The notes under the pieces are model-generated. The model was not told where the DNA came from, searched no databases, and saw only the letters and a program-made list of their open reading frames with translations. From assembly GCF_003116135.1 (NCBI RefSeq), contig NZ_PDOA01000006.1, positions 1 through 64,000 on the forward strand: a DNA stretch of 64,000 bases. Reading direction: 5' to 3'. This DNA comes from Teichococcus aestuarii. GTDB taxonomy: Bacteria > Pseudomonadota > Alphaproteobacteria > Acetobacterales > Acetobacteraceae. Every line of letters begins with the position of its first letter. Position 1 is the stretch's first letter. A program made the translations under genes and the position numbers. Shown here one piece after another: positions 502 through 6,104 of the stretch.

Positions 502-510
502 TTATCCACA
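502..510 (+). promoter_or_regulatory. Perfect DnaA-box sequence TTATCCACA
   Basis: TTATCCACA equals the classical high-affinity DnaA binding consensus. It lies 82 bases before the parA start codon and directly beside an inverted repeat. One weaker match (TGTGGACAA, the complement of TTGTCCACA, one mismatch) lies in the iteron region at 3143-3151. A single 9-mer can occur by chance, but this is an AT-rich word in a G+C-rich replicon and it sits in the replication/partition module. Confidence 0.5.
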
Positions 511-512
511 TC

Positions 513-537
513 GCATGTTTGACGCCATCAAACATGC
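513..537. promoter_or_regulatory. Inverted repeat upstream of parA (operator or centromere candidate)
   Basis: GCATGTTTGA (513-522) and TCAAACATGC (528-537) are perfect 10-base inverted arms separated by CGCCA. The repeat begins two bases after the DnaA box and ends 54 bases before parA. No T-run follows, so a transcription terminator is less likely than a binding site for ParA or its partner, or a partition (parS-like) site. The role is inferred from position only. Confidence 0.45.
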
Positions 538-541
538 TACG

Positions 542-554
542 CAGACATTGTCTG
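542..554. promoter_or_regulatory. Short palindrome CAGACA-T-TGTCTG upstream of parA
   Basis: Perfect 6-base arms flank a single T. The palindrome lies 37 bases before the parA start, where the core promoter or a repressor site would be expected. ParA proteins with an N-terminal extension often autoregulate. This one has only a short extension, so the binding partner is open. Confidence 0.35.
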
Positions 555-591: not shown

Positions 592-1317
592 ATGGGTCGC
601 CGTCCTCCCTCTGCTCTTGCGCGCAAACCTGCTGCCACAGCCTCGCTGGAACCTTCGGTACCTCATACGCAGGTTTTGCTTTTGTCCAGCGCCAAAGGCG
701 GCAGCGCAAAGACGACGAGCACCCGTAATCTCGCGGCACTCGCAGCTCGCGATGGATACCGAGTGGGCACGATCGACCTGGACATGCAGCGCACGCTGAC
801 ACGGTGGTGGAACCGCCGACCAGATCAGCTGCCCGCTATTCACCATTTTGACAAAGTCAACATGGCTGAAGCGGCCGAGGCAATTCAGGAACTCACTTCC
901 CTCAAGGAATTTGACTTCCTATTCATCGATACGCCGCCGGGTATTGAGCATGATACGGAACAGCTGCGTGCTGTCATTCGGCTGGCTGGACTTGTGCTGA
1001 TTCCTACCAGCCAGGGCGGCGAGGATCTGGAGTCCGTGGCTGAATGGATGAAGCTCGTGCGCACCGAAGGGCGTCCGGCCTTTTTCCTTCTTTGCAAGAC
1101 GGACCGCGATGTCAGCAGCCTGGGGGAAGCGCGGCACTATCTGTCGTCAGTGGGAAAGCTGTGCCCACACGATGTGCGGCATATGCAGGCGGTCATGCGT
1201 ACCTATTTCGACGGCAAGGGCGTCGGCGACCTGACAGGCAAGATGGGTCGTAAGGCAGCGGAAGATTATGAAGCGGTCTGGAATTTCGTTCGGTTCGAAC
1301 TGGGGCTGGAGAAGTGA
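592..1317 (+). CDS. parA: ParA-type partition ATPase
   Basis: The 241-residue protein is a deviant-Walker (MinD/ParA) ATPase that segregates low-copy plasmids by ATP-dependent binding to DNA. The deviant Walker A motif KGGSAKTT is at residues 35-42, with the signature lysine K35. IDLDMQ (61-66) is the A-prime region and FIDTPPG (111-117) the Walker B region. About 30 residues precede the Walker motif, so this is a short ParA without the HTH domain of P1-type proteins. GGAG at 581-584 is seven bases from the ATG. The gene overlaps the next one or almost touches it, indicating one transcript. No recognisable ParB follows. Confidence 0.9.
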   Translation: MGRRPPSALARKPAATASLEPSVPHTQVLLLSSAKGGSAKTTSTRNLAALAARDGYRVGTIDLDMQRTLTRWWNRRPDQLPAIHHFDKVNMAEAAEAIQELTSLKEFDFLFIDTPPGIEHDTEQLRAVIRLAGLVLIPTSQGGEDLESVAEWMKLVRTEGRPAFFLLCKTDRDVSSLGEARHYLSSVGKLCPHDVRHMQAVMRTYFDGKGVGDLTGKMGRKAAEDYEAVWNFVRFELGLEK

Positions 1318-1319
1318 CG

Positions 1320-1946
1320 ATGGCTGTCGATCCCAAGGAGCGGTGGGGCGCCCGCAAGGCAGCTTCGCGCCGCGCTTCCATTCTCACCATTGCCCATGAG
1401 GATGTCGAAACGCCGCGGACGACCGTCTATAAGCTCTCCAATGAGACAGAGGTCGTCCGAGAGGTAGAGGTTCTTTGGGAGACCGCCCAGAGAGCATTTC
1501 TCGCCATCGGCCGACTTCTTGTCCAAGCAGAGCGGCAATTCAGGGGCAGCTTCGAGAAGGACATTATCAGCCGGCTGCCTTTCAACCGTTCCGTCGCGCA
1601 TATGCTGCGGACTGTCGCGGAAAAGGTCGAGCAGGGATATGTACCGGAGGCTGAGTTGCCGCGAAGCTACGCTGCCGCTTTCCGTCTGGTGACGCTGGAG
1701 CCAGAGGCATTGGAGGAGGCGAGAAGCCGCGGCCTCGTTTCTCCTCATACGCCACGCTCCGCCATTGAGCGGTTTCGGCAGGAACTGAAATCACAACGGA
1801 TCGCCGCCAGTGGCGAAGCTGCGCTCCTGGCCGTCAAACGACGGGATCTGCTCTCGCGTCTGGAGCGCGCGAAGCGGGAGGTGGAGAAGCTGTCTCAGGA
1901 ACTGGCCGAATTGGACAGTTTGGAAGCCAGCCAGGACCATTCCTGA
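1320..1946 (+). CDS. ParA-linked plasmid protein with C-terminal coiled coil (putative partition partner)
   Basis: This gene of about 208 residues follows parA immediately. ATG at 1320 has GGAG at 1308-1311 at good spacing; a GTG at 1314 overlapping the parA stop would also be in frame but is too close to that site. The middle (about residues 45-110) has the general pattern of DUF3102-like plasmid proteins: a helix with IGRLLVQAE, then FNRSVAHMLRTVAEKV. The last 40 residues (KRRDLLSRLERAKREVEKL and on) are strongly charged with heptad leucines, as in a coiled coil. It is not recognisably ParB, but its position makes it the likely functional partner of ParA. Its stop codon overlaps an iteron copy. 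Family assignment is tentative. Confidence 0.65.
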   Translation: MAVDPKERWGARKAASRRASILTIAHEDVETPRTTVYKLSNETEVVREVEVLWETAQRAFLAIGRLLVQAERQFRGSFEKDIISRLPFNRSVAHMLRTVAEKVEQGYVPEAELPRSYAAAFRLVTLEPEALEEARSRGLVSPHTPRSAIERFRQELKSQRIAASGEAALLAVKRRDLLSRLERAKREVEKLSQELAELDSLEASQDHS

Positions 1947-1959
1947 GGACTTCGGCGGG
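1945..1959 (-). repeat. Iteron copy at the end of the parA-linked gene
   Basis: GAGGACTTCGGCGGG is the complement-strand form of the family CCCGCCAAAGTCCTC, with one mismatch. The preceding T makes TGAGGACTT, so the repeat begins in the stop codon of the upstream gene. See the cluster at 2985-3298. Confidence 0.6.
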
Positions 1960-1989: not shown

Positions 1990-2919
1990 TCAGCGCGTGA
2001 CAAGGGAGATCTGCGTCTTCCGACTGGAAATGGGTGCCGGCGAGGGAGACAGAGACATGCCGCTCGCAAGGCACTCAACCCGGGCGGAGGGATAGACCGC
2101 CGTTGCCAGGGAGAGCTGCTCCATGAACGTCTCCCGGAAATGGTCCAGCCTCCGGATGCCGGTGCCAAACTGCGCGTGCAATGCCTTCCAGGAAACCGAA
2201 GTCGGGCCAGGCAACACATGCAGGCGGTAGGCGAGCCAACAATAGATATCAAGCGCCATGGAGTGGCGGTTGATTGCGCGGATGGCGGATTCCTCAATCG
2301 GCATCGGATGGCGCCTCAGCTGATCGAAGAAGGTTTCCGACAGCTTCGTGCGCTCGAGGAACTGGCTCCCGCCAGAGTCCTCATCCTCGTTGAACAGGGC
2401 CTTGTCGACGATCAACTGCTGGACCAGCGCGGAGCGGCCTGCCTGCTGTACCTCGAAGGTCAAACGGCAGCGCGTGATCCGCTCCGCCTGTTCCCGTACA
2501 TCCTTGATCGACTTTCCGCCCGGCGAAATCCCCATTCGTCCGAGCCAGGCGCGTAGGCTTCGTCCGAGCTCGATTTCCCGGCTGCCTGTCCGAATGGCCT
2601 CGGACTGAAGATACAGCATGATCAGGCGCGCCCGGCTGCCGTAGGGAACCCCGATCCACTCCAGGCTGCCATCAGGACGGGTTTTCCGGCCGGGCTCCAC
2701 CAGCAGGCTCACCTTATCGGTCCGGACCTGCCAGGGCTGGTCGTCCGCCAGCCGCTTGTGGGGCAGTGCGGCCTGCGCCCAGCCGGAATAGATGAAGCCT
2801 ATTCCGCCATCCTCGTCGCCCAGATAGTCGGCCGCGGCGTCGACCACACGTCGGTCGATGTCCAACTTCAAGACACCTTGCCGGCCGTGCACTTCCAGCA
2901 TCCGATGCACTTCCGCCAC
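1990..2919 (-). CDS. repA: Plasmid replication initiator RepA (RepA_C family)
   Basis: The 309-residue protein matches the alphaproteobacterial plasmid RepA family that binds iterons and opens the origin. Recognisable blocks are VPYGSRARLIMLYLQSEA (about 92-109), LGRSLRAWLGRMG, the helical segment ALDIYCWLAYRLHVL (about 226-240), VSWKALHAQFG and a C-terminal VYPSARVE region. The start is a GTG at 2919, preceded by AGGAG seven bases upstream on the minus strand. The gene faces parA, and the iteron cluster lies directly upstream. One iteron copy (2368-2382) is inside the coding sequence. The coding sequence is clearly less G+C-rich than the cargo genes. Confidence 0.88.
   Translation of the reverse strand: MAEVHRMLEVHGRQGVLKLDIDRRVVDAAADYLGDEDGGIGFIYSGWAQAALPHKRLADDQPWQVRTDKVSLLVEPGRKTRPDGSLEWIGVPYGSRARLIMLYLQSEAIRTGSREIELGRSLRAWLGRMGISPGGKSIKDVREQAERITRCRLTFEVQQAGRSALVQQLIVDKALFNEDEDSGGSQFLERTKLSETFFDQLRRHPMPIEESAIRAINRHSMALDIYCWLAYRLHVLPGPTSVSWKALHAQFGTGIRRLDHFRETFMEQLSLATAVYPSARVECLASGMSLSPSPAPISSRKTQISLVTR
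2368..2382 (+). repeat. Iteron copy inside repA
   Basis: CCCGCCAGAGTCCTC differs from the consensus CCCGCCAAAGTCCTC by one base. It lies within the repA coding sequence, where the minus strand reads Glu-Asp-Ser-Gly-Gly-Ser. RepA binding here could affect its own transcription; this is inference. Confidence 0.5.
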
Positions 2920-2984
2920 GGCCCGCTCCTATCCTCATCACGGCGACCTTGAGGAAGATGCAGCATTTCTCCGCTTTTGTCGCT

Positions 2985-3298
2985 GAGGACTTTGGCGGGG
3001 CAAGCTATTAGAAGCCTATTAGTGATACTAGATATTAGTATGTCCCGTCAGAGTCCTCGGGACAAAGGGCTTGAAGCCAGTAAAAACGTCGGAACAGCCC
3101 CGCCCGAGTCCTCACTTTGCCCGCTGAAGTCCTCAGCGGCCGTGTGGACAAGAAAGCCGTAGGCCGCCCTGGCTTTCGGCCCGAATCGGTGCCTGTGCAG
3201 AAGCGCGCGACCGCCGATTCGCTGTCTGGGAGAATGCATCCTCCCGCCAAAGTCCTCGCAGGCAGCCGCTCAAGCAGGATCCTCCCGCCAAAGTCCTC
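2985..3298. repeat. Iteron cluster (oriV candidate), six copies
   Basis: Copies of CCCGCCAAAGTCCTC: 2985-2999 (minus orientation, perfect), 3044-3058 (CCCGTCAGAGTCCTC), 3099-3113 (CCCGCCCGAGTCCTC), 3120-3134 (CCCGCTGAAGTCCTC), 3243-3257 (perfect) and 3284-3298 (perfect). The constant part is AGTCCTC. Start-to-start spacings are 59, 55, 21, 123 and 41 bases; 21 and 41 are close to whole helical turns. The copy at 3120 is embedded in an inverted repeat, CCGCTGA (3121-3127) and TCAGCGG (3133-3139), the form often taken by an initiator's autoregulatory operator. RepA is the expected ligand. Confidence 0.7.
3006..3040. promoter_or_regulatory. AT-rich stretch with TATTAG repeats upstream of repA
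   Basis: Within iteron DNA lies an island with TATTAG at 3006-3011, 3017-3022 and 3033-3038 and TACTAG at 3026-3031, about 7-11 bases apart. Two roles fit: the repA promoter (read on the minus strand, 90-110 bases before its GTG) or the duplex-unwinding element of the origin. The sequence alone does not decide. Confidence 0.4.
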
Positions 3299-3702
3299 AC
3301 CCCCTGCAGCACGGACATGTCCATCCTCGGGTCCAGGAGGCATTCGGCGATCGTGCCTGCGGCATGCCGCTCCGGGGCCGCTGGCGCCGGACCTGCCCCT
3401 GCTGATCCGCGGCAGAGCCCTTGCCACATGCTCAGCAAGGAGAAGTCGACCAAGGCCGACCTGGTGCAGGCACAGCTGCATGGCAGCAGAGCCGGGTTCT
3501 GCATCCCGACCAGGGGAGGCTTTGCACCGGGAGTGTACTCGGAAGCGCGGATGAGGCGTGGCGCGTCTATGCGGGCGGCGGCCGCCGCCTGCGGGGCGAA
3601 GCAGGCAGGGGAGGCATCTGGAAAAGCCGCGTCGAGAAAAATGTCTGGAGACGAGAAGGCAAGGTGGTGTCGCAGTCAGGCTGGGGCCGGATCGGAACAA
3701 GC

Positions 3703-4984: not shown

Positions 4985-4999
4985 CCCGCCCAAGTCCTC
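4985..4999 (+). repeat. Outlying iteron copy between pdxA and the dehydrogenase gene
   Basis: CCCGCCCAAGTCCTC differs from the consensus by one base. It lies 1.7 kb from the main cluster, on the far side of pdxA, and (as at 1944) its TGAGGACTT begins in a stop codon, here of the minus-strand dehydrogenase gene (4998-5000). Confidence 0.5.
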
Positions 5000-6104
5000 A
5001 GACGAGTGCGCCGAGGCCGAGCCGCTCGGTCACGGCGCGCGCCACCTCCGCCGTGCCGGCGCGGCCGCCGATGTCGGGTGTGCGCAGCCCGGCGGCGAAC
5101 ACCGCGTCCACCGCCGCCTCCAGCTCCGCCGCCGCCTCGGCCCAGCCCGGCCCGGCGCCGCGCCCGGCCAGCCAGTCCAGCATCATCGCCGCCGAGAGCA
5201 GCATGGCGGTGGGGTTGGCGATGCCCTGGCCGGCGATGTCCGGCGCCGTGCCGTGGCTCGGCTGGAACACCGCATGGCCATCGCCGATATCGGCCGAGGG
5301 CGCGAAGCCCATGCCGCCGATCAGCCCGGCGCCGAGGTCGGAGAGGATGTCGCCGAACATGTTCTCGGTCGGCAGCACGTCGAAATCCCAGGGGCGGCGG
5401 ACCATGTCGAGCGCCATGGCATCGATGTAGTGGTGCGCCGCCTCCACCTCCGGGTGCTGGGCCGCCACCTCGTGGAACACCTTCCGCATGAAGGCGAAGC
5501 CGGTGAAGACATTTGCCTTGTCCACCAGCGTCACGCGCCCGGGCCGGCCGCGCCGCGCGGCGCGCCGCCGCGCCAGGTCGAAGGCGAAGTGGGAGAGGCG
5601 CTCCGTGGTCGCGCGGGTGATCACCATGGTGTCCCGCGCCTCGCGGTCGTCGATCAGCTCACCCTTGCCGCGGGCGGCGAACAGCCCCTCCGTGCTCTCC
5701 CGCAGGATCACCATGTCGATCTGCGCGGCACGCGGGTCGGCCAGCGCCAGCGGCACGCCCGGCAGGGCGCGGATCGGCCGCACCCCGGCATAGAGGCCGA
5801 GGCGGAAGCGCAAGTCGAGCTGCGGCGCGATCTCGGTGCCATCCGGATAGCGGATGCCCGGCCAGCCCATGGCGCCGAGCAGGATGGCATCCGCCGCGCG
5901 GGCGCGCTCGAAGGTGGCCTCGTCCATGGCGCTGCCGGTGTCGCGATAGGCCATGGCGCCGGCGCGCAGCGTCTCGGCATGCAGCCCCAGCGCGTGCCGG
6001 CGCGCCAGCACCTCCAGCACGCCCATGCAGGCCTCGCTGACCTCGGTGCCGATGCCGTCGCCGGGCATCAGGGCGATCTGCACCGCGTTGCGGTTCACAG
6101 CCAT
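4998..6104 (-). CDS. Tartrate / isopropylmalate-type dehydrogenase
   Basis: The 368-residue protein is a beta-decarboxylating NAD-dependent dehydrogenase of the isocitrate/isopropylmalate/tartrate family. Visible motifs are the N-terminal PGDGIGTEV, RESTEGLFAARG (substrate loop), VDKANVFTGFAFMRK, DAMALDMVRRPWDFDV and TENMFGDILSDLGAGLIGG, which carry the metal-binding aspartates. The sequence VLPTENMFGD and the overall length fit tartrate dehydrogenase/D-malate dehydrogenase better than LeuB. The chosen ATG (MAVNRN) is at 6104. Its start overlaps the end of the upstream gntR by ten bases, so the two are co-transcribed. The probable substrate is a 2-hydroxy dicarboxylate such as tartrate or malate; this is inferred. 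Confidence 0.82.
   Translation of the reverse strand: MAVNRNAVQIALMPGDGIGTEVSEACMGVLEVLARRHALGLHAETLRAGAMAYRDTGSAMDEATFERARAADAILLGAMGWPGIRYPDGTEIAPQLDLRFRLGLYAGVRPIRALPGVPLALADPRAAQIDMVILRESTEGLFAARGKGELIDDREARDTMVITRATTERLSHFAFDLARRRAARRGRPGRVTLVDKANVFTGFAFMRKVFHEVAAQHPEVEAAHHYIDAMALDMVRRPWDFDVLPTENMFGDILSDLGAGLIGGMGFAPSADIGDGHAVFQPSHGTAPDIAGQGIANPTAMLLSAAMMLDWLAGRGAGPGWAEAAAELEAAVDAVFAAGLRTPDIGGRAGTAEVARAVTERLGLGALV

Follow-up and report, generated by a model that had tools for sequence, protein, structure and literature searches.

The question and the organization of the locus

An exact DnaA box stands beside inverted repeats just upstream of a parA gene in the DNA examined here, raising the question of what the repeats do, which protein reads them and whether the box belongs with them. 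An earlier note, made from the sequence alone, had placed three features between positions 502 and 554 and proposed that they could be the partition site or the promoter operator. We have analyzed the whole 64,000-nucleotide stretch, hereafter the window, which comprises bases 1-64000 of contig C74 (246,298 bp) in a genome of 5.2 Mb. The elements occur in the order DnaA box and palindrome, parA, an overlapping partner gene and a convergent repA gene.

The parA gene (592..1317, + strand) encodes a 241-aa protein that resembles type Ib, with a Walker ATPase domain beginning at about residue 27. The product scores above the cut-off for the Pfam families AAA_31, ParA and CbiA; against NF041546 (ParA_partition) it reaches 93.6 bits, under the cut-off of 180. 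The Walker-type ParA ATPase of a ParA-type (type I) plasmid partition system is thus present. As the ATPase domain starts so early there is no space for an N-terminal DNA-binding domain, and with a ParA of this kind the partner would be the natural repressor. The partner gene (1314..1946, + strand) has 210 codons, with a likely start at 1320 that gives a protein of 208 aa, and belongs to a DUF3102-related family. It adjoins or overlaps parA on the downstream side, here as in each of the 78 further modules described below whose parA is co-oriented. It is followed by the gene for the replication initiator RepA (1990..2919, - strand; RepA_C, PF04796), which is convergent with the parA-partner pair. 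We considered a RepABC replicon and rejected it, because the locus has this convergent RepA_C gene after parA and the partner, and not a repA-repB-repC operon.

At the very start of the window an open frame enters from the contig end (1-117). By eye it looks like the tail of a transposase (GLVVRTIGLARAEVKIGLANLAYNMKRLVWLSG...); the 38-residue piece that it encodes gave no Pfam match. An IS element may therefore lie just upstream of the par genes and end the contig.

A conserved block upstream of parA

The DnaA box TTATCCACA lies at 502..510 on the + strand, and is the only exact copy in the 64 kb, where 0.03 would be expected. The perfect box claimed in the earlier note is therefore present, and beyond chance. 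It forms the first half of a composite element. The second half is the inverted repeat GCATGTTTGA-cgcca-TCAAACATGC at 513..537, which we propose to be the operator or parS of the partner protein, and which ends 54 bp before the start of parA. Among 500 mononucleotide shuffles of 401-591, none produced an inverted repeat with arms of at least 10 bases and a gap of up to 8. The third feature, CAGACA-T-TGTCTG (CAGACATTGTCTG) at 541..553, is of a different standing. Arms of at least 6 bases with a gap of up to 3 were seen in 73 of 500 shuffles of the same stretch, and the sequence is missing from both close relatives of the locus. All three features of 502-554 thus exist, with the box and the 10-base repeat exceeding chance and CAGACATTGTCTG compatible with it, and we rejected the last as a functional site. 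Its core AGACA-n-TGTCT resembles the TTAGAC-type sites of three family loci (L100, L106 and L113). We take this as coincidence, since the other partner homologue of the genome (contig C29, locus L074) goes with TTTTACGCGGTAAAA.

Two independent close relatives were found, in Roseomonas sp. 18066 (L032) and Pseudoroseomonas deserti (L033), with parA 76-85% identical to that of the window. The former is the same locus as L120 in genome G778, and the latter coincides with the plasmid locus of L003, L040 and G361. Among 17 genomes of the genus searched at E ≤1e-50, only the window and these two were recovered. By blastn the window aligns with both relatives from base 671 onward, with no other similarity upstream. 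When the upstream 300 bp were compared without gaps, the best match was exactly 502-535 of the window in both relatives, with scores of 24 and 22 set against maxima of 13 and 11 in 40 shuffles each. The block that is kept reads TTATCCACA-N6-GTTTGACGCC(A/G)TCAAACAT. The spacer (511..516) is 6 bp in all three modules while its sequence varies (TCGCAT, GGCCAG and GGTCGG). The core of the palindrome, GTTTGACGCCATCAAACAT at 517-535, differs from the relatives by one A/G change, and the flanking arms are longer in the window. The conserved unit is accordingly 502-535, not 502-554. The combination TTATCCACA-N6-GTTTGAC occurs in 2 of 397 genomes of the family, both times upstream of this parA. A nucleotide search of PLSDB with 200-1950 gave no matches.

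The earlier note had held that the repeats should be conserved in plasmids carrying the same parA if they are functional. By this measure the 10-base repeat stands and CAGACATTGTCTG fails. The note had seen no canonical parS palindrome and we agree, having recognized neither a RepABC nor a chromosomal parS motif; the 10-base repeat is itself likely to be the parS. The exact sequence GTTTGACGCCRTCAAAC is found once in the genome, with three further places that carry 2 mismatches, and the CATGTTTGAC arms are found again in two other family loci (L047 and L051).

Within the palindrome, TTGACG at 519..524 (+ strand) is a possible -35 hexamer by the sigma-70 consensus. In the relatives, TACAGT or TAGGTT follows it after a 16-bp spacer, which could be read as a promoter. 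No promoter emerged from a strict scan of 380-620 in the window.

The DnaA box within the genome and the subgroup

The box is exact, and at a fixed 6-bp spacing from the palindrome, in all three modules of the subgroup (the window, L032 and L033). In the remaining 76 of the 79 modules, the 500 bp that precede the P-loop contain no exact DnaA box; L042, which is among these, carries an upstream copy with one mismatch. Since the box is fixed in three of three modules here and exact in none of 76 elsewhere, it is a trait of the subgroup that the basic machinery of these modules does without.

The whole genome contains 10 exact copies of TTATCCACA, and a reversed-pattern control gave 6. One of the other copies adjoins two one-mismatch boxes beside a gene that by eye we take to be hemE (L123), which looks like an oriC-like setting. 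Two more lie upstream of an initiator gene of the Rep_3 family (L121, G000:C23, at 909 and 1106). The occurrence of the sequence beside the hemE-like gene and the Rep_3 gene indicates that the host very probably uses the DnaA consensus, and on such sequence grounds DnaA of this host very probably recognizes TTATCCACA as a genuine site. There is by eye a ParA-like gene near the L121 boxes, which would give this genome a further origin of plasmid type. Two further pairs of exact boxes were noted, one on opposite strands 60 bp apart (L125, G000:C41, 1529 and 1589) and one on a single strand 227 bp apart (L126, G000:C63, 1430 and 1657), the latter with TTATCCGCA at 1418.

A probable replication origin beyond repA

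A probable oriV lies at 2984..3299, upstream of repA. It contains 16-bp iterons CCCGCCAAAGTCCTCA with up to 3 mismatches at 2984 (- strand), 3044, 3099, 3120, 3243 and 3284, and between inverted iterons there is an AT-rich stretch (3003..3045) resembling an unwinding element. Further copies of the iteron occur at 1944-1959 (- strand) near the stop codon of the partner gene, at 2368-2383 inside repA and at 4985-5000. Both relatives have iterons around repA, which is 89% identical over 306 aa in each, and AT-rich 60-mers in the iteron regions. Among the iterons of the window is a DnaA-box-like sequence with one mismatch, TTGTCCACA (3143..3151, - strand), that is also found in L033 and not in L032. 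From its sequence organization the iteron region is the likely replication origin, and we judge it unlikely that the 502-537 element is one. Because the likely origin with its iterons and AT-rich stretch sits elsewhere, the box is more likely to be regulatory, or to act at a centromere as in Caulobacter, than to serve an origin.

Palindromes in the wider family of modules

Homologues of the partner were found in 59 of 397 genomes of the family (E ≤1e-8) and in 60 PLSDB records, where they are annotated mostly as hypothetical or DUF3102. A class-level search of 385 genomes recovered the partner in 2, including that of the window. The family genomes hold 99 places, the window being one. We fetched 78 of these, leaving 20 (G206 and the 19 weakest), together with two of three places from G446, a genome of another family. 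Adding the window and L032 to these 80 loci gives 82. A co-oriented parA is present in 79; L065, L070 and L119, which have none in the stretch, were dropped.

Inverted repeats with arms of at least 7 bases are present upstream in 50 of the 79 modules, compared with 8 of 79 when a stretch of the same length within parA is taken, and with a mean of 9.7 and a maximum of 16 in 20 rounds of dinucleotide shuffling. The contrast is sharper for half-sites ending in AC and GT that are 2-4 bp apart with arms of at least 6 bases. Such palindromes occur in 45 of 79 modules; the stretch within parA has them in none of the 79, and shuffles give a mean of 1.0. The 79 modules are not independent, as some are near-identical, and the 45 with such a palindrome reduce to 32 at >30% partner divergence. 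The remaining 34 have no perfect AC..GT palindrome; they include the window, with its A/G mismatch, and L073, L080, L079 and L091. Ten further plasmids from the 60 PLSDB records, chosen by eye for spread and not fully independent since some of their genera had already been sampled, gave the AC-GT type in 7 of 10 (3 of 10 are without it) and arms of at least 7 in 8 of 10, compared with 1 of 10 and 2 of 10 respectively inside parA.

Palindromes of the family include GTTTGACGCCGTCAAAC, TCTTACGCCGTAAGA and TTAGACATGTCTAA, and TTTTACGGCGTAAAA, which occurs in pairs. Those that resemble the window's repeat are CCATGTTTGACATGTCAAACATGG (L047) and CATGTTTGACGTGTCAAACATG (L051). Two or three copies are present in L064, L069, L087, L090, L099, L130, L132 and L133, with TTTTACACGTGTAAAA found three times in L099. 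The genome under study has two partner homologues at E ≤1e-8, on C74 and C29. The second belongs to another parA and partner module (L074, G000:C29) with a palindrome of another type (TTTTACGCGGTAAAA again). Differing sites for the two modules are as expected if divergence keeps coexisting replicons apart.

The proposal of a partition site or promoter operator thus fits what we find. The repeat is kept with parA in both relatives, and palindromes of its class are enriched upstream of parA across the family. As regards candidate centromere repeats, palindromes are enriched near parA and conserved in the subgroup, as seen at the level of sequence.

The partner protein and the reading of the palindrome

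The window partner has no Pfam match of its own. In an alignment of 65 members of its family, 24 match DUF3102 (PF11300) at E ≤0.01 (best 4.6e-7), and the window protein is not among them. An AlphaFold2 model based on the 65 sequences has a mean pLDDT of 86. Residues 1-41 have no predicted secondary structure and mostly low pLDDT, and are followed by a helical core and a C-terminal helix of 61 residues. An arginine in the N-terminal tail is present in 59 of the 65 rows of the alignment (the window has D in that column), and would be reminiscent of tails that contact ParA.

Comparison of the model with the PDB by VIA-align placed DNA-binding domains of the ParB superfamily (KorB, ParB/Spo0J and Noc) in 11 of the 12 best rows, with Z of 5.8-8.7 over 91-118 residues, and 8.7, 8.3 and 7.4 for KorB; for helical proteins, Z values below about 13 may lack specificity, and the twelfth row was the unrelated Raf1 at 6.8. 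Foldseek against the PDB gave nothing at E ≤0.001 (best 2.2), and a PDB sequence search with the partner profile returned no DNA-binding protein and no persuasive match, mostly coiled-coil or helical chains. The modelled likeness to the ParB superfamily is a strong hint rather than proof. By prediction the partner combines a ParB/KorB-type helix-turn-helix with a long helix at its C-terminus, and has no CTPase domain. A canonical ParB, which is a CTPase, was rejected as its identity, given that residues 1-41 lack a predicted fold and the protein has no Pfam match; with no CTPase domain by prediction, the partner is not a canonical ParB.

Distances between half-sites correlate with distances between partners (r 0.45, n=32, 0 of 2000 permutations), and a partial correlation persists given ParA (0.143, p 0.027, n=32). 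The correlation with ParA distance is similar (r 0.437, n=32), and falls to 0.065 (p 0.21) given the partner. Over all 45 modules the partner has a lower partial correlation (0.095, p 0.052), and in an earlier test with 43 hand-assigned half-sites the ParA correlation given the helix-turn-helix of the partner also reached p 0.036. The automatic assignment covers the 45 modules with a perfect AC..GT palindrome and not the other 34, and gave L076 a GC-rich palindrome in place of TTTAACCGCGGTTAAA. Half-site differences therefore appear to track the partner more than ParA, although the effect is modest and some variants of the test do not show it. Taken with the model, the partner is most likely the reader of the palindrome, both as operator-binding repressor and as centromere-binding protein.

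A proposed mechanism and its alternatives

On balance we think it probable that the palindrome is an operator or parS of a ParA-type system, read by the partner, with a DnaA box fused to it in this subgroup. The region 513-537 would be the cis site, acting as operator and, most likely, as the centromere. The partner of 208-210 residues, probably a dimer, would bind the palindrome and repress the parA-partner operon, and its flexible N-terminal tail would let nucleoid-bound ParA move the plasmid. With the box fused 6 bp upstream, DnaA and the partner would occupy adjacent sites about 19 bp apart, center to center, so that DnaA could adjust parA expression or assembly of the partition complex with the replication cycle. 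Coupling of partition to the host cell cycle by a DnaA box, as the earlier note suggested, is on these sequences a hypothesis. The proposal is supported by conservation of the composite block, by enrichment of palindromes in the family, by the predicted fold of the partner and by the origin-like iterons elsewhere. From these we infer binding by the partner and by DnaA, dimerization, autoregulation, centromere function and the direction of any effect of DnaA.

The palindrome could instead be an autoregulatory operator only, with DnaA as a transcription factor at the promoter and the centromere elsewhere, for example in the iterons or other repeats. On many plasmids the centromere is distinct from the operator of the par genes, and an operator would agree with a single exact site in the genome that ends so close to parA and has the -35-like TTGACG inside. 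The two or three copies upstream of parA in several members are more typical of a centromere, and we consider the operator-only reading rather unlikely. Another reading is that the palindrome is bound by ParA, or by a regulator encoded on the chromosome; in its favor, operator distance also correlates with ParA distance. The correlation falls from significance once the partner is taken into account, except in the hand-assigned test, and a ParA whose ATPase domain begins at about residue 27 is poorly suited to the task. A single host regulator is unlikely given that the two modules of the genome (C74 and C29/L074) have different sites, and overall we find this explanation very improbable. A chance arrangement without function is true of CAGACATTGTCTG; for the rest it is scarcely credible, as the block 502-535 is kept in both relatives and the enrichment is family-wide.

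A further alternative concerns the box only, and is compatible with the palindrome being parS. The box might belong to the origin, with DnaA at 502 helping to open the iterons some 2.5 kb away and its link to the palindrome being structural. In favor of this, both relatives share repA and the iterons with the window, and neither has another exact DnaA box within its 10.6-10.7-kb locus; the iterons of L032 are without any box of up to 1 mismatch. Against this, the iterons and AT-rich stretch have their own place at 2984-3299, with counterparts in the relatives; the GC content around the box is 62-64% in the relatives (47% in the window); and it is the palindrome, not the iterons, that stands at a fixed 6 bp from the box. 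We regard an origin role for the box as quite improbable.

Implications

Our preferred reading, in which the partner reads the palindrome as operator or parS, may have a broader meaning. There might be a large and little-characterized alphaproteobacterial partition family of plasmids with a CTPase-less ParB/KorB-like partner and fast-diverging palindromic centromeres, in one branch of which a fused DnaA box would let host DnaA license segregation directly. This we put forward tentatively, as we do the analogy that would make the branch a plasmid counterpart of the link between DnaA and parS in Caulobacter. If true, it would give a predictable parS or operator and its reader for modules in 59 of 397 genomes and 60 PLSDB records. 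It would also offer a small plasmid system for control of plasmid segregation by host DnaA, a question that the excerpts of the literature compared treat for chromosomes and for the secondary replicons of Deinococcus, and it would add a further CTPase-less ParB-like lineage for which no sequence relationship to ParT was found.

Literature searches on DUF3102, alone (titles) or with ParA and plasmid, returned nothing on partition. Among the matches listed for DnaA box with par or parS and for KorB/ParB, the site family is not described in titles or the starts of abstracts; nor is it described among those listed for Acetobacteraceae or Roseomonas par and for CTPase-less partners.

Comparison with known systems

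KorB of the IncP plasmid RK2 is the best structural match of the modelled DNA-binding core of the partner. In KorB, a CTPase, the N-terminal domain binds CTP, whereas residues 1-41 of the partner have no predicted fold. An oligonucleotide of the KorB operator OB contains TTTTAGCGGCTAAAA, according to an excerpt of the source (PMC11790492), which is close to family sites such as TTTAGCCGGCTAAA of L073 and L080. This sequence, upstream of parA in both loci, is one base longer than TTTAGCGGCTAAA of the RK2 KorB operator.

The ParATS system of the Streptomyces plasmid SCP2, as excerpted, also has a ParA with a ParB-like partner that has a flexible N-terminal tail, a helix-turn-helix in the middle and no CTPase fold (PMC12260392). 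ParT, of a family marked by NTP-independent clamp loading at parS, has 325 aa and a C-terminal dimerization domain, its system has a parS of inverted repeats, and its homologues are reported mainly from Actinomycetota and Cyanobacteriota (PMC12260392, in part). A similar protein architecture is predicted here. We found no sequence relationship between ParT and the partner (hhalign probability 0.6%, BLASTP E 0.37), and, in contrast to the present locus, the excerpted text on ParATS mentions no DnaA box (PMC12260392).

Association of DnaA with segregation has its closest parallel in Caulobacter crescentus. There DnaA binds the parS region and enables segregation even without replication (Mera et al. 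2014, as cited in the excerpt of PMC6399470). Both cases are alphaproteobacterial, and here an exact DnaA box lies 6 bp from the candidate centromere in all three subgroup modules. The Caulobacter system, however, is a chromosomal canonical ParABS, whereas here there is a plasmid, one box and a different type of site. In Deinococcus radiodurans the cisII/cisMP elements upstream of parAB on secondary replicons bring together DnaA- and ParB-binding elements, described in the excerpt as arrays of direct repeats that contain non-canonical DnaA boxes and show ori-like activity (PMC7671480). The present locus differs in having one exact box and one palindrome, with the origin-like region elsewhere. 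At rctA/parS2 of Vibrio cholerae chromosome II, RctB and ParB2 bind adjacent zones of the centromere and jointly control parAB2 (PMC6399470, in part), the protein beside ParB2 being the initiator RctB and not DnaA. Seen against these systems, the module would work like a ParABS system, with a partner set apart from canonical ParB by the predicted absence of a CTPase domain.
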